Shown: positions 24,912-34,498 of the stretch, one piece after another | Numbering within the stretch: the stretch's first letter is position 1 | Layout: each line of letters begins with the position of its first letter | Assembly (NCBI GenBank): GCA_021781815.1 | Contig: JAJXWB010000008.1 | Location: forward strand, 1-64,000 | DNA: 64,000 bases | DNA from: Pseudomonadota bacterium | GTDB lineage: Bacteria > Pseudomonadota > Alphaproteobacteria > Rhizobiales > Beijerinckiaceae | Direction: 5' to 3' | Notes under the pieces: generated by a model | Told to the model about the DNA's origin: nothing | Database searches by the model: none | Seen by the model: the letters and a program-made list of their open reading frames with translations, nothing else | Program-made: the position numbers and the translations under genes

Positions 24912-27900
24912 TTACTCCGCCGCGACTTTCGTCGGCGCGAGCGCTGCGCGGAATTTCGTGAGCAGCTTGGCTTCCTCGGCTTTCGCCTTCTGGATGTGGC
25001 TCTCCTTCACGTGACCGAACCCGCGGATTTTTTCGGGCACGCTCGCGACCTGCACGGCGAGTGCGTGCGTCGCTTCGTTGAGGCCGGCTTCGAGCTCAAA
25101 CAACTGCGCCTCGTAGTCTTGCAGCAGCTTGCGTTCCAGTCGGCGCTCGGGCGTCCTGCCGAATATGTCCAGCGCAGTGCCGCGTAAAAACTTCAGCGAC
25201 GCCAGCAGACGATAGACCGTCATCATCCACGGCCCGAACGTCGTCTTGACCGCGTTGCCCTGCGCGTCCTTATGGCCGAGAATCGGCGGCGCGAGATGGA
25301 ATTCCAGCCGACCGGCGTTCTCGAACGCGGCGTCGAGCTGACGCCTGAACGATCCGTCGGTATAGAGCCGCGCCACCTCGTACTCGTCCTTGACCGCCAT
25401 CAGCTTGAACAGATAGCGCGCGACAGCCTCGGCATAGGCGGTCATGCCCGGCGTCCGCGCATGTTCGGCCGCCATCGCGCGCTCGACGAACTTCTTGTAA
25501 CGCGCGGCATAGGCGGCGTTCTGGTAGGCCGTCAGAAATTTCACGCGCCGCGAAATGATCTCGTCGAGCGACGTCGACAATTCGCGCGTCTCGGTGGCTT
25601 TGCGCATCGGCGCTACCAGCGCGTCGAATGCGTGCGGATCGGCCGCCGCGCGACGTCCCCAGTGGAAGGCGGTCGTGTTCATCGCGACGGCCTCGCCGTT
25701 GAGCTCGATCGCGCGCAGGATCGAGGCTTCCGACAGCGGCACGAAGCCACGCTGGAAGGCGAACCCCAGCATGAACATATTGCCGCCGATCGAATTGCCG
25801 AGCAGCGCGGTCGCCGCGCCGGAAGCGTCGACGAAGCCGACGTGTTCTCCCGCCGCATCCTTGATCGCGCGCTTCACGCGCTCGCCCGGCAGCGCGAAAT
25901 CCGCCATGCGCGTGATCTCGCCGGGATAGACTTCCGCAGTGTTGACGAACACTCCCGTCTCGCCGCGATCGATGGCCGACAAAACCTTCTTGGTGCCGGC
26001 GACGACAAGGTCGCATCCCAGCACGAGATCGGCCTCGCCCGCTGCGACGCGGATCGCATGCACCTCGTCCGGCCTGCGCGCGATCTTGACGTGGCAATAG
26101 ACCGCGCCGCCCTTCTGCGCCAACCCGGCCATGTCGATAACGCCGACGCCCTTGCCCTCGAGATGGGCGGCCATGCCGAGAATGGCCGAGATCGTCACGA
26201 CGCCCGTGCCGCCGACGCCGGAAACGAGGATGGAAAAGGGCTGCGGCCCGATCTCCGGAATCCTCGGCGCGGGCGGTTCAGGCAGGGCGTCCGCCGATTG
26301 CATGTCGCGCGCCGCCGCCTTGCGCGGTTTCGCGCCATGCACCGTCACGAACGACGGGCAGAAACCGTTGACGCAGGAGAAATCCTTGTTGCAGGACGAC
26401 TGATCAATGACGCGCTTGCGGCCGAACTCGGTTTCGAGCGGCTGCACCGACACGCAGTTCGACTTCACGCCGCAATCGCCGCAGCCCTCGCACACCAGCT
26501 CGTTGATGAGTACGCGCTTGTCGGGATCCGGGAACGTGCCGCGCTTGCGACGCCGGCGCTTCTCGGCCGCGCAGGTTTGGTCGTAGAGCAGAACGGTTGT
26601 CCCCTCGATCGCCGCCAGATCGCGCTGGATCTTGTCGAGATCCTCGCGTGGATGAATCGTGAGATTGGCCGGCCAGTGCGAACCGGATGGATATTTGTAC
26701 GGCTCGTCGGTCACGAGCGCGATCTTCTTGACGCCTTCGGCGGCCACCTGCCGCGCGATCATGTCAACGGTCAGCCCGCCTTCGTGGCGCTGGCCGCCGG
26801 TCATGGCGACCGCGTCGTTGAACAGGATCTTGTAAGTGATGTTGGTCTTGGTATCGACCGCCCAGCGGATCGCCAGCACGCCCGAATGATTGTAGGTGCC
26901 GTCGCCGAGATTCTGGAACACATGCTTGCGCTTCGAGAATGGCGCCTCGCCGATCCAGTTCGCGCCCTCGCCGCCCATATGGGTGTAGCCCTCGGTCGAG
27001 CGATCCATCCATTGCGCCATGAAATGGCAGCCGATGCCGGCATAGGCCCTCATTCCCTGAGGGACGCGCGTAGACGTGTTGTGCGGACAGCCCGAGCAGA
27101 AATAGGGAATACGGAAGGATGCGTCGCGGGTGTCCGCCAGCATGGCCTGCGCCTGCTGCAGACCGCGCAGCTTCTGCTCGATCTGATCGTCGTTCCTGTA
27201 GCGCAGGATACGTTCGGCGACCGCGATGGCGATCTCGTTCGTGTCGAGCGCGCCCTTGACCGGGAACAGCCAGTTGTTGTTTTCGTCCTTCTTGCCGACC
27301 ACGATCGGCGCGTTCTTCGTCCCGTAGAGTTCCTCGCGCACCTGCACTTCGATCAGCGAACGCTTCTCCTCCACGACGATGATCATTTCGAGGCCGTCTG
27401 CGAACGCCTTCAGCCCCTGCGGCTCGATCGGCCAGGGGCAGCCGATCTTGTAGAGCCGGACGCCCAGATCGTTGGCCTTGACTTCGTCGATGCCGAGATC
27501 GTCCATCGCCTGACGCACGTCGAGATAGGACTTGCCAGTCGTGATAATGCCGACTTTTGCGTTCGGTCCGCCCGAGGTGACGATCCGGTTGATCGTGTTT
27601 GCGCGCAAAAAGGCCAGGATGGCGTCGCGCTTGTATTCCTGCAGCCGCGCTTCCTGGTCCAGAATGGCGTCGCGCACGCGGATGTTGAGGCCGCCGAGCG
27701 GCATTTTGAAATCGCTCGGAACGACGGGTTGCGCGCGATCAAGCGAGCCGTCGACCGAAGACGTCGATTCGATCGTATCCTTCAGGCATTTGATGCCGAC
27801 CCACACGCTGGCGTAGCGCGACAGCGCAAAACCGTAGAGGCCGTAATCCAGAATTTCCTGCACGCCGGCCGGCGCCAGGATTGGCATCATCACATCGACG

Positions 27901-28421
27901 AGATGGAAGTCGGACTGATGCGCCGTGGTCGACGATTCGGCAGTGTGATCGTCGCCCATCAGCACCAGCGCGCCGCCGTACTTCGATGTACCCGCAAGAT
28001 TGGCGTGGCGGAACACATCGCCGGATCTGTCGACGCCTGGTCCCTTGCCGTACCAGATGCAGAACACCCCGTCGTATTTACCTTCCCCGCGCATTTCCGC
28101 CTGCTGCGCGCCCCAGACGGCGGTCGCAGCCAAATCTTCGTTGAGACCGGGCTGGAACGTAATGTCGTTGGCGTCGAACCACCGCTTGGCCGAATGCATC
28201 TGCATGTCGACCGAACCCAGCGGCGAGCCGCGATAGCCTGTAATGAATCCCGCCGTGTTCAGCCCCGCGCGCCGGTCGCGCTCCTTCTGCATCAGCAGCA
28301 GGCGCACCACCGCCTGCGTACCAGTGGCGAAGACGCGGGATTTTGTCAGATCGAATTTATCATCGAGGGAGATTCCGCCAAACGCGGACTGAGCGGCGCG
28401 CGCTTCAAGCGGCTCGGCCAT
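24912..28421 (-). CDS. Indolepyruvate ferredoxin oxidoreductase (fused subunits)
   Basis: A 1169-residue fused 2-oxoacid:ferredoxin oxidoreductase for arylpyruvates or branched oxoacids; it releases CO2 and acyl-CoA and reduces ferredoxin. The TPP-binding half includes FCSGCPHNTSTRVP (about residue 440) and the following GCHFMAQWM. A cysteine-rich stretch CEGCGDCGVKSNC and SSCNKDFSCVNGFCPS (about 640-690) would bind iron-sulfur clusters. The gamma-type domain starts at SGVGGTGVVTI (about 732). The ATG at 28421 follows GGAGG by seven bases. It stands alone, with an outer-membrane protein gene behind it. Confidence 0.93.
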   Translation of the reverse strand: MAEPLEARAAQSAFGGISLDDKFDLTKSRVFATGTQAVVRLLLMQKERDRRAGLNTAGFITGYRGSPLGSVDMQMHSAKRWFDANDITFQPGLNEDLAATAVWGAQQAEMRGEGKYDGVFCIWYGKGPGVDRSGDVFRHANLAGTSKYGGALVLMGDDHTAESSTTAHQSDFHLVDVMMPILAPAGVQEILDYGLYGFALSRYASVWVGIKCLKDTIESTSSVDGSLDRAQPVVPSDFKMPLGGLNIRVRDAILDQEARLQEYKRDAILAFLRANTINRIVTSGGPNAKVGIITTGKSYLDVRQAMDDLGIDEVKANDLGVRLYKIGCPWPIEPQGLKAFADGLEMIIVVEEKRSLIEVQVREELYGTKNAPIVVGKKDENNNWLFPVKGALDTNEIAIAVAERILRYRNDDQIEQKLRGLQQAQAMLADTRDASFRIPYFCSGCPHNTSTRVPQGMRAYAGIGCHFMAQWMDRSTEGYTHMGGEGANWIGEAPFSKRKHVFQNLGDGTYNHSGVLAIRWAVDTKTNITYKILFNDAVAMTGGQRHEGGLTVDMIARQVAAEGVKKIALVTDEPYKYPSGSHWPANLTIHPREDLDKIQRDLAAIEGTTVLLYDQTCAAEKRRRRKRGTFPDPDKRVLINELVCEGCGDCGVKSNCVSVQPLETEFGRKRVIDQSSCNKDFSCVNGFCPSFVTVHGAKPRKAAARDMQSADALPEPPAPRIPEIGPQPFSILVSGVGGTGVVTISAILGMAAHLEGKGVGVIDMAGLAQKGGAVYCHVKIARRPDEVHAIRVAAGEADLVLGCDLVVAGTKKVLSAIDRGETGVFVNTAEVYPGEITRMADFALPGERVKRAIKDAAGEHVGFVDASGAATALLGNSIGGNMFMLGFAFQRGFVPLSEASILRAIELNGEAVAMNTTAFHWGRRAAADPHAFDALVAPMRKATETRELSTSLDEIISRRVKFLTAYQNAAYAARYKKFVERAMAAEHARTPGMTAYAEAVARYLFKLMAVKDEYEVARLYTDGSFRRQLDAAFENAGRLEFHLAPPILGHKDAQGNAVKTTFGPWMMTVYRLLASLKFLRGTALDIFGRTPERRLERKLLQDYEAQLFELEAGLNEATHALAVQVASVPEKIRGFGHVKESHIQKAKAEEAKLLTKFRAALAPTKVAAE

Positions 28422-28610
28422 ATTGTTTCCTCCGGTCAGGCGGGCGCTCCGCCCTGACGCACGCAGGCATGTTAGCCTGCTTTCTGTCTTGGTATATGTC
28501 AACAGTACTGACGGAATTCAATGAGGCGATTGCTCGCGAGATCAGCAAGACATTTCGCCGGCGCGCAACCACCGACCCTGACGGCCACAGATCGCGCTGC
28601 ATCCGGAAAC

Positions 28611-28661: not shown

Positions 28662-29603
28662 TCAGTACTTCGCCACCACCGGGGCGCTGCCGCCAAAGTT
28701 GAAGTGATAATTGACGCCGGCCCGGACGATATCGCCGTTAAAGCGGGTCCGCGCCTGCACGATGTTGATGAACTGCAACGCTATGCGCGGCGGACCCACC
28801 TGCGCCACGGCGAACGAGTTCGTCTGCGAGCCGAGGTCGTAATAGAGGTATTCGAGTTTGACGCTCCAGTTCTCGGCGAATTTCCATTCGCCGCCAACGC
28901 CCAGCGTCCAGCCGAGTTTAGTGCCGGAGCCGCTCGCGCCGCCCATGACAGGTTGCAGATTGGGACCAGGAGGAGAGGAAACATCCTGATACAACGCCGT
29001 CGCCGAAGACACCTGGCCATAGGCGAGACCGCCCGTGCCATAGAAGAGGAGCGTCGGCGTCACGAGATAGCCGAGACGGCCTCTGACGGTTCCCAGATAG
29101 TCGATCGCCTTCGAATTCCCGAGGATCGTTTGATAGGCGGTCCCGGCTGGACCGGGCGGAGAGGGAACCGGGCCGAATGAAACGCCGACGCCATTGCCGC
29201 CGCCGGTCAGTCCCTGAATATCGGCCTCCAGACCTGCAACCAGGCTCTGTCCGAACTGATAATTGTAGCCGATCTGGCCGCCGCCAATGAAATGGCCTGG
29301 CGAACCTGCGCCGAAGATTCCGGTCGCGCCGGTCGCAGCGCCGATCGCCGTGTTCGCGAATGGACCGCCGCCAGGGCCGGCTGCGGGGTCGACCCCGATG
29401 AAGATCGGCGACGACGCAATGTCCGTCGTGCTCGTCCGGTCCCAGGAATATCCGGCGTTCACGCCGGCGTAGAAGCCGGTCCAGCTCACCGTCGGCGCGG
29501 CGACGACCATGATCGGCGGCGCCTTGCGGGATGGCAGATCGGCTGCGAACGCGCCCGTCGCAGCGACGGTGGCTGCAACAGACAGCAGCAAGTGCTTTTT
29601 CAT
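28662..29603 (-). CDS. Outer-membrane beta-barrel protein (Omp25/RopB-like)
   Basis: A 313-residue outer-membrane protein. A signal peptide (MKKHLLLSVAATVAATGAFAA) precedes DLPSRKAPP, then the barrel opens with WTGFYAGVNAGYSWDR, the standard first strand of alphaproteobacterial Omp25/RopB-like porins. Other strands are FIGGGQIGYNYQFGQSLVAGLEADI, LGTVRGRLGYLVTPTLLFYGTGGLAYG, GWTLGVGGEWKFAENWSVKLEYLYYDLG and VRAGVNYHFNFG. Glycine- and proline-rich loops between strands are longer than usual. The ATG at 29603 follows GGGGG; the frame extends four codons further to a TTG. It is monocistronic and ends in a clear terminator. Confidence 0.9.
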   Translation of the reverse strand: MKKHLLLSVAATVAATGAFAADLPSRKAPPIMVVAAPTVSWTGFYAGVNAGYSWDRTSTTDIASSPIFIGVDPAAGPGGGPFANTAIGAATGATGIFGAGSPGHFIGGGQIGYNYQFGQSLVAGLEADIQGLTGGGNGVGVSFGPVPSPPGPAGTAYQTILGNSKAIDYLGTVRGRLGYLVTPTLLFYGTGGLAYGQVSSATALYQDVSSPPGPNLQPVMGGASGSGTKLGWTLGVGGEWKFAENWSVKLEYLYYDLGSQTNSFAVAQVGPPRIALQFINIVQARTRFNGDIVRAGVNYHFNFGGSAPVVAKY

Positions 29604-30032
29604 GTTAACCCCCAATATCGTCTGGGCGTCAGCGTCATTTCAACGACTCTGACATCCAGAATATATTTATAATTGAGTAGGTAGCGTGCAGGAACCGTTT
29701 CGTGTCGCTTTATGACAATGTTGCCTTTGGTTTGGTGACGAGCGTGACCAATTTGCAACGAATTTGTTCGCCCCGATCGTGTGTAGGGTGCAAGTGCAGC
29801 GGCATGACTGAATGCGGCGACATGATAAGTTTCGGTCTGCTCGCTGAAATCTACAGCGCATGTCAATCTGCGCGCCCACCACTGTCTCGCTTGCGCCTGA
29901 TCCCGCCAAGACGGGACGCACCGGCGCAGACATTGCAGATCATCGAATATAATTGATTTAAATCAGTTTTCTAACTCACAGATCATTAAGATCCTGCGCG
30001 CAGATTACTGGAGTTCCATCTCTGGATTACAC
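29604..30032. other. AT-rich intergenic region with an FNR/FixK-like box
   Basis: This 429-base region separates the divergent porin and c-di-GMP genes and must hold both promoters. It is clearly richer in A and T than the genes around it, notably near 29660-29680 and 29940-29995. I see no gene in it. The only regulatory signal I can name is the FNR/FixK-like palindrome at 29953-29966. Confidence 0.5.
29953..29966 (+). promoter_or_regulatory. Candidate FNR/FixK anaerobox
   Basis: TTGATTTAAATCAG matches the FNR/FixK consensus TTGAT-N4-ATCAA at nine of ten positions and centres on a perfect 12-base palindrome (29954-29965). If it acts as a class II activator site, transcription would start near 30001, about 30 bases before the TTG start of the GGDEF-EAL gene, and CATTAA at 29984-29989 would be the -10 box. 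That geometry is good. Confidence 0.5.
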
Positions 30033-32711
30033 TTGAACCTCTGGCCACATCTTAAAAGGGGATTCCCCCTCATCGTCACCAGCGCGTTGCTCACGCTGAT
30101 CGTGCTTGGTTCGCTCGTCCTGTTCATTCTGAAGATGCGCGCCGACGCAATCGAGGACTGGACGTCCAACGCCGGCAATCTCGGCTCCATGTTCGCGGAG
30201 CAGGTGGACCATGCGATGGAGGCGCTCGACGGCTCGCTGCGCACAACCGTCCGTGTGCTCCACAACACGCCGGCCGACGATCTGCGGGCGCGCGTGACCA
30301 AGCCTGGTTTCATCGCGGCGCTCCAGGCGGAGCGGGCCGAGCTGTTTCATGCGGCGCTGCTCGCGATTGCGGACGAGAATGGCGTCGTGATCGCTGGCAG
30401 CCGCGGCGCCGACACTTTGGGACTCAGCATCGCCGACCGGGATTATTTCAGGAATCTGCGCGACGCGCCGGACGCAGGACTTGTCGTCAGCCGACCAATC
30501 CTCAGCCGCGCGACAGGCGCGTGGACCGTGTTTCTCGCCCGGCGGCTTTCGGCGTCCGACGGCCATTTCCTTGGGATCGTCTTCATTGGCGTCGAGCCGG
30601 GCGATCTGATGCAGACGGCGAACTCGATCGTGGAAACGCCCGGTCAGGCCCTTTCGATGTTCGACAGGTCCGGCGCCCTCCTCATTCGCGCGCCGGCGCC
30701 GTCCATACACGGAGAGATCGGCCGCATCATCCCGGCGAGTTCAGAATGGCATGCGATCGCTGCGGCCGGCGGCGGCATGTATCGCTCGCCCGGCTGGTTC
30801 GACGACAAACCGAAATATGTCGCCGTCCGGCTGGTTCCCCACTATCCGCTGGCTGTCAACGTCGTGATCACGGAGGAGGCGGCTCTCGCCAGATGGCGGC
30901 AGCGCTCGATCGTCATCGCCGCCGCCAGCGCGGTCGCACTGGCGCTGATCGGCGCCCTGCTCCATGCGCAATTCCACCTGCGTGAGCGTCTTTCCCGGGC
31001 GCGCATCCGCTCCTGGCTGCGCGGCAGACGGCTCAGCGCCAAGTCGGACGAACTGGCGAATATCAACAAACGCTTCGGGCTGACTCTCGATTACATGGCG
31101 CACGGCATGGCGCTGTACGATGCGCAGGGGCGGGTCGTCGTCTCCAACCATTGCTATGCCGAACTCTACGGCCTGCGCCCGGACCAGATTCGGCCGGGCA
31201 TGCGCGTGCAAGACATATTCGAATTGCGCATCGCCGCGGGCGCATACGCCGGCGGCGCCCCGGACGCGTATCGCAACTTTGCGCTCAATCTGAAACTCGA
31301 CGACCGTATTGACCATCTCGCAAACGGGCGCGTCATCCACATCCGCACCAAGAGGACCGACGGGGGCGGCTGGGTGACGATGCAGGAGGACATCACCGAA
31401 CGCATCGCCTCGACCGAACGCCTGTCGCACATGGCGCTGCATGACGGGCTGACGGGGCTGCCAAACCGAGCGGCTTTCAAGAAGCATCTCGCTGCCGCAG
31501 CAAGCGGAGCGTCCGGTCCGGACGACCGGTCGATCGTCTTGCTCATCGATCTCGACGGGTTCAAATACGTCAACGACACCTATGGACACGACATTGGCGA
31601 CCAGGCCCTGGTCGAAGTCGCTGCGCGTCTTTCGCGCGCCGCCGCAGCAGCCTTCGTCGCACGGCTCGGAGGCGATGAATTCGTCGTGATGGCGAAGTGC
31701 TGCGGATGCGAGTCGACCTGCGCGTCGGCGCTCGCCGAAGATCTGATGCGCACGGTGCGGCTGCCCCTTAACTTCGACGGCCGGCGCATCTCGCTCACGC
31801 TGTCGATCGGCTCGGTCATCATCGAGGGAACTGGGTTCGACGCGACCCATGTGCTGCGGCGCGCCGACCTCGCGCTGCTGGACGCCAAGAATCTTGGTCG
31901 CGACCGCTGGCGGATGTTCGACGCGGACATGGAGCGCCGATTCGACGAGCGCGCCGGGCTCGCGCGGGAATTGCGCGAGGCGATCGAGATGGACGGCCTC
32001 GCCGTGTTCTATCAACCGATCGTCGCAGCCTCGGATCGCAAGATCGTCTGCATGGAGGCGCTGGTCCGCTGGCGCCACCCGACACGGGGCATGATCTCGC
32101 CTACGGTCTTCGTCCCGCTGGCGGAGGAGACCGGCCTCATCCTTCAGCTCGGGGAATGGGTCATGCGCCGCGCCTGCTTGGACGCCGCGGCATGGTCGCC
32201 AGACGTCCCGGTCGCGGTCAACGTCTCGTCGCTGCAGATCAGTCAGCCCGATTTCGCGCGCGGCGTATCGCATGTGCTGGCGACGACGGGGTTGCCGCCG
32301 CAGCGCCTGCAGATCGAGATCACCGAATCCGTTCTGCTGCAGAGGGACAGGCAGACGATCGCCGAATTGCATGCGCTGCACGAACTCGGCGTCTCGTTCG
32401 CTCTCGACGATTTCGGCACCGGTTACGCCTCGCTCGCCTATCTCAAGTCGATCCCGCTCGACAAGGTGAAGATCGACAAATGCTTCGTCGACGATATTTG
32501 CGTCGACAAGCAGTCGGTGGCGATTGTCGGCGCCGTCGTCGCCCTGGCCCGCGGCCTCGGAATCGTCACGACGGCCGAAGGCGTCGAAACGCAGGAGCAG
32601 TGGGACGCCCTGCGCGGCATGGGAGTCTCGACCATGCAGGGCTTTTATTTCGGCAAGCCCCGACCGATCTCGGAGATTCAACCACCCGGCAGGCGGAATT
32701 TCGCGGCCTGA
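30033..32711 (+). CDS. Membrane-bound Cache-PAS-GGDEF-EAL c-di-GMP protein
   Basis: An 892-residue sensor that could both make and break cyclic di-GMP. A first membrane helix (residues about 12-33) is followed by a periplasmic dCache-like sensor (HAALLAIADENGVVIAGSRG, DRDYFRNLRDAP), a second helix (about 290-312), a PAS domain (about 350-470), a diguanylate cyclase domain with intact GGDEF at about 546 and a phosphodiesterase domain with EAL at about 675. The EAL catalytic residues look complete: NVSSLQ, EITES, LDDFGTG, KIDK, AEGVET and MQGFYF. The frame opens at a TTG without a good ribosome site, so the start is uncertain. An FNR/FixK-like box lies 70 bases upstream. Confidence 0.9.
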   Translation: MNLWPHLKRGFPLIVTSALLTLIVLGSLVLFILKMRADAIEDWTSNAGNLGSMFAEQVDHAMEALDGSLRTTVRVLHNTPADDLRARVTKPGFIAALQAERAELFHAALLAIADENGVVIAGSRGADTLGLSIADRDYFRNLRDAPDAGLVVSRPILSRATGAWTVFLARRLSASDGHFLGIVFIGVEPGDLMQTANSIVETPGQALSMFDRSGALLIRAPAPSIHGEIGRIIPASSEWHAIAAAGGGMYRSPGWFDDKPKYVAVRLVPHYPLAVNVVITEEAALARWRQRSIVIAAASAVALALIGALLHAQFHLRERLSRARIRSWLRGRRLSAKSDELANINKRFGLTLDYMAHGMALYDAQGRVVVSNHCYAELYGLRPDQIRPGMRVQDIFELRIAAGAYAGGAPDAYRNFALNLKLDDRIDHLANGRVIHIRTKRTDGGGWVTMQEDITERIASTERLSHMALHDGLTGLPNRAAFKKHLAAAASGASGPDDRSIVLLIDLDGFKYVNDTYGHDIGDQALVEVAARLSRAAAAAFVARLGGDEFVVMAKCCGCESTCASALAEDLMRTVRLPLNFDGRRISLTLSIGSVIIEGTGFDATHVLRRADLALLDAKNLGRDRWRMFDADMERRFDERAGLARELREAIEMDGLAVFYQPIVAASDRKIVCMEALVRWRHPTRGMISPTVFVPLAEETGLILQLGEWVMRRACLDAAAWSPDVPVAVNVSSLQISQPDFARGVSHVLATTGLPPQRLQIEITESVLLQRDRQTIAELHALHELGVSFALDDFGTGYASLAYLKSIPLDKVKIDKCFVDDICVDKQSVAIVGAVVALARGLGIVTTAEGVETQEQWDALRGMGVSTMQGFYFGKPRPISEIQPPGRRNFAA

Positions 32712-32795
32712 GGATCGGCCTCTCCCCATTTCCGCCGCCTTCGTCGTGCATCGCGAACGCTGCGGTCCAGGCTATTCCGCCTGCGCCTTCGAAGC

Positions 32796-33455
32796 GTGAA
32801 CGAGCAAATGGCGATGCGAATGCGGTTGGCCCTGTGCGCGGCGGCGGTTCTGGCGCTCGGCGCCCCGCCCGCGTCGGCTCACCCGCATGTCTGGGTCACG
32901 GCCCGCGCCACAGTCCTGTTCGACAAGGACGGGCAGGTCGCCGGCATCCGCCACGACTGGGCTTTCGACGAAATGTACTCCGCCTTCGCGACGCAGGGGC
33001 TGGGCAAGGACGGCAAACCGCCGACCCGCGAGGACTTGCAGCCGCTCGCCAGAACGAATGTCGAATCGCTGGCGGAATTCGATTACTTCACCTTCGCCAA
33101 GGAAGCCGGCCGCAAGCTGGAATTCGACGGTCCGGTCGACTATTACCTCGACGCCGACGACAAGAAGATCGTGACGCTGCACTTCACCTTGCCCCTGAAA
33201 CAGCCGGCCTCGGCCAAAAAGCCGTTTTCGTTCCAGGTCTACGATCCCACGTATTTCGTCGCCTTCGCGTTCGAGAAGCAGAAGCCGGTCGCCTTGCGCG
33301 CCGCGCCGTCGGGCTGCTCATTGAGCGTAATGGAGCCGGCGCCGCTGCTCGCTGCTGATTCCCAGCGTCTGAGCGCGGCGGCGAGCGAGAATTTTTCGCC
33401 AGGCTCCGACCTCTCCTCCCGTCTCGCGCCGCGCGTTCTGGTGGCCTGCCCGTGA
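32796..33455 (+). CDS. DUF1007 family exported protein
   Basis: A 219-residue periplasmic protein of the DUF1007 family. The signal peptide (RMRLALCAAAVLALGAPPASA) ends before HPHVWVTARATVLFDKDG, the family's opening, which keeps the His-Pro-His metal-type motif. Later family blocks are HDWAFDEMYSAFA, FDYFTFAKEAG and YDPTYFVAFAF. DUF1007 proteins are usually encoded next to NicO-type nickel/cobalt or zinc transporters, as here. I list the GTG at 32796; ATG codons at 32808, 32814 and 32820 are equally possible because no ribosome site is strong. The stop overlaps the transporter start by four bases. Confidence 0.88.
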   Translation: MNEQMAMRMRLALCAAAVLALGAPPASAHPHVWVTARATVLFDKDGQVAGIRHDWAFDEMYSAFATQGLGKDGKPPTREDLQPLARTNVESLAEFDYFTFAKEAGRKLEFDGPVDYYLDADDKKIVTLHFTLPLKQPASAKKPFSFQVYDPTYFVAFAFEKQKPVALRAAPSGCSLSVMEPAPLLAADSQRLSAAASENFSPGSDLSSRLAPRVLVACP

Positions 33456-34498
33456 CGCCGCCGGCCATCGGCGCGCCCGCTCCCCGCCAGCAGGGCGAGC
33501 GCCAGCGCAGGAGGGCGCGCGTCGCGTTCATTCTGTCGGCTGCAATTCTCCTCGCCGGGCCCGCGTTCGCGCAACATCATCCGTTCGCGGTCGGCGCCGA
33601 CGAAGGGTCGGCCGGCGCAGCGTCCGGGATTCTCGCCTGGATCATCGCTGCGCAGGCGCATTTCTATCGCCTGCTCACCGACGCCGTGCGCCAGACGAGG
33701 ACGACCAGCGCCGGCTTCTGGCTGCTCGCCGGCCTGTCCTTCGCCTATGGCGTGTTTCACGCAGCCGGTCCGGGCCACGGCAAGGCGGTCATGGCCTCCT
33801 ACATGGTCGCCAACGAGCGTGCGCTGAAGCGCGGCGTCATCCTGACATTTCTCGCAGCCGCGCTGCAGGGGACGGTCGCCGTCGGCGTCGTCGCGATCGC
33901 TGCGCTGATCTTCAACGCGACCGCGCCGCGCATGACCGAAGCCGCACAAGCGATCGAATTGGCGAGCTACGGCGCCGTCGCCGGACTTGGTCTGTGGCTC
34001 GCCTGGAGCAAAGGGCGCGCCTTGTTGCTGGACGTGCGCGCCGCGCTGGCGCCCGCCGGCAGCGCGCTCGGCTCCGCCTTCACATGCGAGGCGATCGAAC
34101 CCGGCCACGTCCACACTTCCGCCTGCGGCCACGTTCATGCGCCGCATCCCGCAATGCTCGACCAGGGATTCTCGTGGGGGGCAGCGGTCGCCGCCGTCGT
34201 CGCGGCCGGCGCGCGCCCCTGCTCCGGGGCGATCCTCGTACTCGTGTTCGCGCTCGCGCAGGGCGTGTTTCTGGCGGGAGTCGGCGCGGTCGCAGCCATG
34301 TCGCTCGGCACGGCGCTCACCACCGGCGCGTTCGCATCGACCGCCGTCTTCGCCAAAGGCCTCGCGATGCGACTCGCCGCCGGCGACGGCCGCGGCGCGC
34401 TTGTCGCGCGCAGCGCGGAGTTCATTGCCGCTCTCGTTGTGCTGGTCGCCGGCCTGGGCCTGCTCGCCGGCGCCTGGTTTTCGCGCGCGGCAGCCTAG
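33452..34498 (+). CDS. NicO-family nickel/cobalt (metal) transporter
   Basis: A 348-residue inner-membrane transporter of the NicO/RcnA class. An N-terminal hydrophobic segment (residues about 24-40) precedes a mature start QHHPFAVG. Family motifs are FHAAGPGHGKAVMASY, and ARPCSGAILVLVFALAQG in the second half. A cytosolic His-rich loop (HVHTSACGHVHAPHP, about 221-236) probably binds metal. There are about six further membrane helices. The GTG start lies in the stop of the DUF1007 gene (GTGA), so the two are coupled. Whether it imports or exports the metal cannot be told. Confidence 0.9.
   Translation: MTPPAIGAPAPRQQGERQRRRARVAFILSAAILLAGPAFAQHHPFAVGADEGSAGAASGILAWIIAAQAHFYRLLTDAVRQTRTTSAGFWLLAGLSFAYGVFHAAGPGHGKAVMASYMVANERALKRGVILTFLAAALQGTVAVGVVAIAALIFNATAPRMTEAAQAIELASYGAVAGLGLWLAWSKGRALLLDVRAALAPAGSALGSAFTCEAIEPGHVHTSACGHVHAPHPAMLDQGFSWGAAVAAVVAAGARPCSGAILVLVFALAQGVFLAGVGAVAAMSLGTALTTGAFASTAVFAKGLAMRLAAGDGRGALVARSAEFIAALVVLVAGLGLLAGAWFSRAAA

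Follow-up and report, generated by a model that had tools for sequence, protein, structure and literature searches.

Does a low-oxygen regulator set the amount of a cyclic di-GMP (c-di-GMP) enzyme in this bacterium? The question is raised by a 14-mer, TTGATTTAAATCAG, that lies on the + strand at 29953-29966 (centre 29959.5) of the window, the 64,000-nt stretch of DNA analysed here, just ahead of a gene for a GGDEF-EAL protein. A sequence-only reading had placed an FNR/FixK-like site there, fitting the consensus at nine of ten positions, and the sequence is present exactly there on that strand: it agrees with TTGATNNNNATCAA at 9/10 positions, its final base being G and not A. Judged on sequence, the link between a low-oxygen type of site and a c-di-GMP gene is probably real, and the whole reading, an FNR/FnrN/FixK-family class II activator site for the GGDEF-EAL gene, centred near -40, appears likely.

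Nowhere else in the window does a sequence come within one mismatch of TTGATNNNNATCAA. Chance alone is expected to supply 0.98 such matches per window, and at least one turned up in 63 of 100 shuffles, so the bare match is no more than chance would give; what makes the window box credible is its position and its conservation. A count of the pattern as proof of a site was dropped, about one match per window being expected anyway. Over the genome, TTGATNNNNATCA returns 32 rows that reduce to 28 distinct places, and since 21 of the 27 places other than this one fall inside predicted ORFs, most of them are probably chance; the six outside predicted ORFs are L039, L041, L047, L057 (its first place), L058 and L061. 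A control with the reversed pattern (18+14 versus 0+0; 16+16 versus 4+4) was discarded as unfair because, in our judgement, reversal yields words containing TAG or CTA, which are rare in coding DNA. As to position, a box of at least 9/10 has a shuffle frequency of 0.018 in the 260 bp before the GGDEF-EAL ORF, and this gene alone, among 47 predicted in the window, carries a box of at least 8/10 in its 200 bp upstream (9/10); the best upstream box scores 5 to 7 in 45 of the others, and one has no upstream sequence to score. Gene calls, both for these 47 and for the ORF status of the genome matches, come from a simple custom codon-bias predictor.

The GGDEF-EAL protein and its promoter

The gene downstream of the box runs from 30033 to 32711 on the + strand, as called from a TTG codon (the real start is uncertain), and would encode an 892-aa membrane protein. 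Its architecture, assigned by Pfam and by alignment of signature residues, comprises a weak dCache_1 domain (35.8 bits, under its cut-off of 45), PAS_7 (76.5 bits), GGDEF (125.7 bits) and EAL (242.5 bits), the last two above their cut-offs. Signature residues of both domains, GGDEF and EAL, line up with those of the solved enzymes 5m3c and 4rnh, so that cyclase and phosphodiesterase activities both seem possible; the EAL domain carries the residues expected of the active form, and inspection by eye revealed no RxxD inhibitory site in the protein. The product probably makes or breaks c-di-GMP, and of the two phosphodiesterase activity would be favoured.

Sixty-six bases separate the box from the called TTG. 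The sequence-only reading had put the transcript start near 30001, with CATTAA as the -10 element and the box centre about 41 bases before the start. Its spacing agrees with the arithmetic, as a start at 30001 would give a box centre of -41.5. Its -10 element stands only in part: the hexamer CATTAA is present at 29984-29989, but it matches TATAAT at 3/6 positions (by eye), and TAAGAT at 29987-29992 on the + strand, which is the best hexamer after the box in the window and overlaps a conserved TTAA (29986-29989), scores higher and reads better as the probable -10. A start 7-9 bases past TAAGAT would fall at 29999-30001 on the + strand and put the box centre at -39.5 to -41.5. A consensus scan of 29600-33000 places two sigma-70-like promoters on the - strand and none on the + strand, which fits expectation if the box replaces the -35 element. 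In the classic arrangement the -10 lies about 2 bp further from the box than TAAGAT does, and the hemN box of the same genome has its CTATAG 3 bp further away than TAAGAT is from the window box (counted on the sequence). This tight spacing counts mildly against the class II reading.

How might such a promoter work? A regulator dimer would occupy 29953-29966, centred some 40 bases ahead of the transcript start; from there it could stand in for the -35 element and contact RNA polymerase in the class II manner, with TAAGAT serving as the -10. Low oxygen would make the regulator active, either directly through a [4Fe-4S] cluster (FNR/FnrN) or through a FixLJ-like relay (FixK). The active regulator would then cause the membrane GGDEF-EAL protein to be made and c-di-GMP to be shifted, more likely downward, via the EAL domain.

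Conservation in orthologous promoters

Matches to the GGDEF-EAL protein at E <= 1e-120 occur in 4/6 genomes of the genus, and orthologs in 3/6, the own genome included (own, G005 and G002, with identities of 100, 62 and 52%). The three were taken as orthologs because a DUF1007 gene comes next in all of them and because the divergent neighbour in the other two loci (L032, L033) is the gene for indolepyruvate ferredoxin oxidoreductase (IOR). In the window IOR lies further off, at 24912-28502 on the - strand, since an outer-membrane beta-barrel gene (28662-29615) that is absent there from L032 and L033 sits between it and the GGDEF-EAL gene. Downstream, the DUF1007 gene and then a weak nickel/cobalt-efflux-like gene (30 bits, cut-off 195) occupy 32796-34498.

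All three orthologous promoters carry a box at a matching place: TTGATTTAAATCAG in the window (9/10), ACGATTAAAATCAA in L032 (8/10) and TTGACAAATATCAA in L033 (9/10), at -80, -72 and -82 respectively relative to the called starts. Against a longer consensus, TTGANCNNGATCAANG, as given in PMC4999443, they fit at 8, 7 and 9 of 12 positions in the same order, counted by eye. In 3/3 promoters TTAA starts 33 bases from the start of the box. A search blind to FNR motifs over the three 260-bp upstream regions returned, as its best ungapped 45-mer, the block that contains the box, with 19 identical columns, compared with a mean of 13.7 and no more than 15 over 25 sets of dinucleotide shuffles. The shuffle frequency of a box anywhere in 260 bp is 0.040 for L032 (at least 8) and 0.008 for L033 (at least 9), and because the promoters share descent the frequencies of the three are not independent. 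The sample behind these comparisons is three promoters from one genus, one of the genomes (G002) being 57% complete.

The box appears to travel with the GGDEF-EAL gene, because neither the paralogs nor a DUF1007 locus elsewhere carries one. Five paralogs (L034-L038), which align over nearly their full length at 39-43% identity and some of which have uncertain starts, show no box of at least 8/10 in the stretch between 600 bp upstream and 150 bp downstream of the called start. In G003 a DUF1007 gene is present and no GGDEF-EAL match is found at 1e-120, and the 3612-bp DUF1007 locus holds no box of at least 8/10.

Among 298 genomes of the family, five match the GGDEF-EAL protein at E <= 1e-190, three of them being the orthologs already counted. 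The other two loci (L068, L069) belong to another genus; their proteins are 42 and 41% identical and paralog-like, and IOR and DUF1007 neighbours are missing from the stretch seen. They were weighed neither for nor against conservation of the box. L068 has no box of at least 8/10. As a separate observation, L069 has two boxes upstream of this distant GGDEF-EAL relative: a 10/10 box, TTGATCTGAATCAA, at -229 (relative to an ORF at 1495) and one of 8/10 at -156; TTGATCTGAATCAA also lies close to a divergent gene that, judged by eye, resembles a globin gene. On wider affiliation, a search of genome contigs gave 16 loci, the best three from Bradyrhizobium at 40%, and the PmoA/AmoA family had no match in this genome or in 14 control genomes, a result that carries no information.

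Candidate regulators and rival explanations

The genome encodes proteins that could read such a box. HTH_Crp_2 has 14 matches, 12 of them above the cut-off, and four of the proteins (L001, L002, L003 and L005) are of FNR/FixK type, with a common helix LGLTIETVSR. Their best NCBIfam models are FnrL/FixK/FNR-like, all below cut-off, and the nearest solved structures of L003, the one searched, are FixK2 (4i2o) and FNR-type regulators. An alignment read by eye finds C-x2-C-x7-C plus a central Cys in L002, L003 and L005, while L001 lacks the first Cys; PMC4999443 describes such cysteines as the mark of the oxygen-sensing FnrN branch and FixK as lacking them. Searched with the alignment of the four regulators, every one of the six genus genomes yields one or more matches at E <= 1e-30. 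A 9/10 box stands at or near the called start of three of the four regulator genes, L002 being the exception; in the case of L001 and L005 the box sits within the called ORF or at its first codon, so their true starts are probably later.

Boxes also occur at genes where they would be expected. TTGACATGCGTCAA lies between hemN and ccoN in the same genome (TIGR00538 and TIGR00780 above cut-off), and G004 carries the identical 14-mer. TTGATATGAATCAG lies 128 bp before nuoA (Pfam above cut-off, NCBIfam NuoA below), and TTGATATAAATCAG precedes an Irr-like Fur gene, 27 bp from its called start (Pfam above cut-off, NCBIfam Irr below). Among the FnrN/FixK targets of Rhizobiales, PMC4999443 includes cco, hemN and nuo, and irr for R. 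palustris. Given an unchanged geometry in the two orthologous promoters, matching regulators and boxes at expected targets, the earlier suggestion that an FNR/FixK-type site is placed for control of the GGDEF-EAL gene holds up well.

Could the box be real but answer to something other than oxygen? Dnr proteins share the FNR box, and a NO-sensing relative of the DNR/NnrR type might read it, so that the gene would respond to denitrification intermediates. PMC7232146 describes Dnr proteins as haem-binding sensors of NO. The genome does have norC/norB (L067) and nosZ (L054, TIGR04246 above cut-off), an 8/10 box, TTGATAAGAATGAT, stands on the reverse strand 69-82 bp upstream of norC (L067:927-940), and a Crp-type regulator, L009, is encoded about 4.5 kb from norB on the same contig. 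However, no DNR/NnrR protein is found among the regulators scanned (L009 was outside the scan), L006 and L011 match FtrB best, below cut-off, and all four proteins with the FNR helix are FnrL/FixK/FNR-like, which leaves a NO-responsive promoter unlikely. The box may instead have arisen by chance, the promoter being AT-rich, and be bound by no regulator; the expectation of 0.98 equally good matches per window speaks for this, as does the location of most other genome matches within predicted ORFs, but chance does not readily keep both box and spacing in three species or leave every other gene in the window (47 predicted) free of an upstream box of at least 8/10, and we regard it as quite improbable.

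Finally, the box could serve its neighbours, either mainly the downstream DUF1007 and efflux-like genes or the divergent barrel gene at 28662-29615. In three species DUF1007 comes after the GGDEF-EAL gene, so an operon is possible. Yet the G003 DUF1007 gene, with no GGDEF-EAL gene beside it, shows no box of at least 8/10 in its 3612-bp locus, the start of the barrel gene is more than 340 bp from the box, and in L032 and L033 the gene diverging from this one is IOR, not a barrel gene; service to neighbours is thus very improbable. The class II activator site for the GGDEF-EAL gene, read by a regulator of the FNR/FnrN/FixK family, is the explanation we prefer.

Known systems and the IOR side of the locus

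FNR-mediated coupling of c-di-GMP turnover to oxygen is not new, the precedent being yfgF (PMC3718329). FNR-box wiring of c-di-GMP genes is already known in other bacteria, and the window gene would be a further case. In E. coli and Salmonella Enteritidis, as described in PMC3718329, yfgF resembles the arrangement proposed here: an FNR box, TTGAT/TTGAC--ATCAA, is centred at -41.5, in class II position, and the gene behind it encodes a membrane GGDEF-EAL protein. For yfgF, E. coli experiments measured both control by FNR and anaerobic expression, whereas for the window gene they are predicted from sequence. The proteins differ too. According to PMC3718329, E. coli YfgF is a membrane GGDEF-EAL phosphodiesterase that carries MASE1 and whose GGDEF domain is inactive, in contrast to the dCache-like plus PAS_7 N-terminal part and intact GGDEF motif of the window protein. 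MASE1 is absent from the Pfam domains found in the latter at E <= 0.001, so the protein is not a YfgF and would share just the wiring. Alongside the enterobacterial yfgF, this locus would, if the reading is right, provide a conserved, lineage-specific case in which a low-oxygen regulator governs how much of a c-di-GMP enzyme is made, and it would suggest that c-di-GMP turnover came under FNR control on separate occasions, with different enzymes.

Other relatives lie closer in phylogeny. FnrL of Rhodobacter capsulatus is an alphaproteobacterial FNR homologue, and PMC7232146 lists c-di-GMP signalling genes among those it regulates or binds; in the main text of a paper on the FnrL regulon, PMC4634722, the words GGDEF and diguanylate are absent. 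Within Rhizobiales, FnrN and SinR of Agrobacterium tumefaciens likewise place a biofilm trait under FNR-type control at low oxygen (PMC4018554). Unlike the arrangement proposed here, that control acts via a second FNR-family regulator, and PMC4018554 calls the biofilm-maturation targets unclear. The FnrN/FixK regulon of Rhizobiales has a similar box and the same cco, hemN, nuo and irr targets as this genome (PMC4999443), and the main text of that paper makes no use of GGDEF, diguanylate or c-di-GMP. NO and c-di-GMP are treated together in Paracoccus by PMC5588039, whose mention of FnrP is confined to a reference. A search of open-licence literature found no report of the GGDEF-EAL gene, which is not searchable by organism name, and no paper that joins a FixK2 regulon to GGDEF, which does not imply absence from print.

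The divergent side of the locus offers an observation of its own. Ahead of IOR, a block at 28488-28521 of the window is strongly conserved in the three species (about 1210-1245 in L032 and 1170-1205 in L033), and because it overlaps the called start, the true start of IOR is probably an inner Met. By eye, the block holds an FNR-like box, which scores 8/10 in both L032 and L033 and 7/10 in the window, and an adjoining GTCAG-N5-CTGAC dyad, one arm of which is altered in the window; a repeat search with arms of at least 6 does not list this dyad. The region may ancestrally have been a two-way low-oxygen switch, in which one FNR-type box governed the c-di-GMP enzyme and another, FNR-like, governed the divergent IOR, an idea that is speculative and on balance rather doubtful. 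IOR is probably oxygen-labile, and under a two-way switch ferredoxin-linked keto-acid metabolism and c-di-GMP turnover would be co-induced as oxygen falls.
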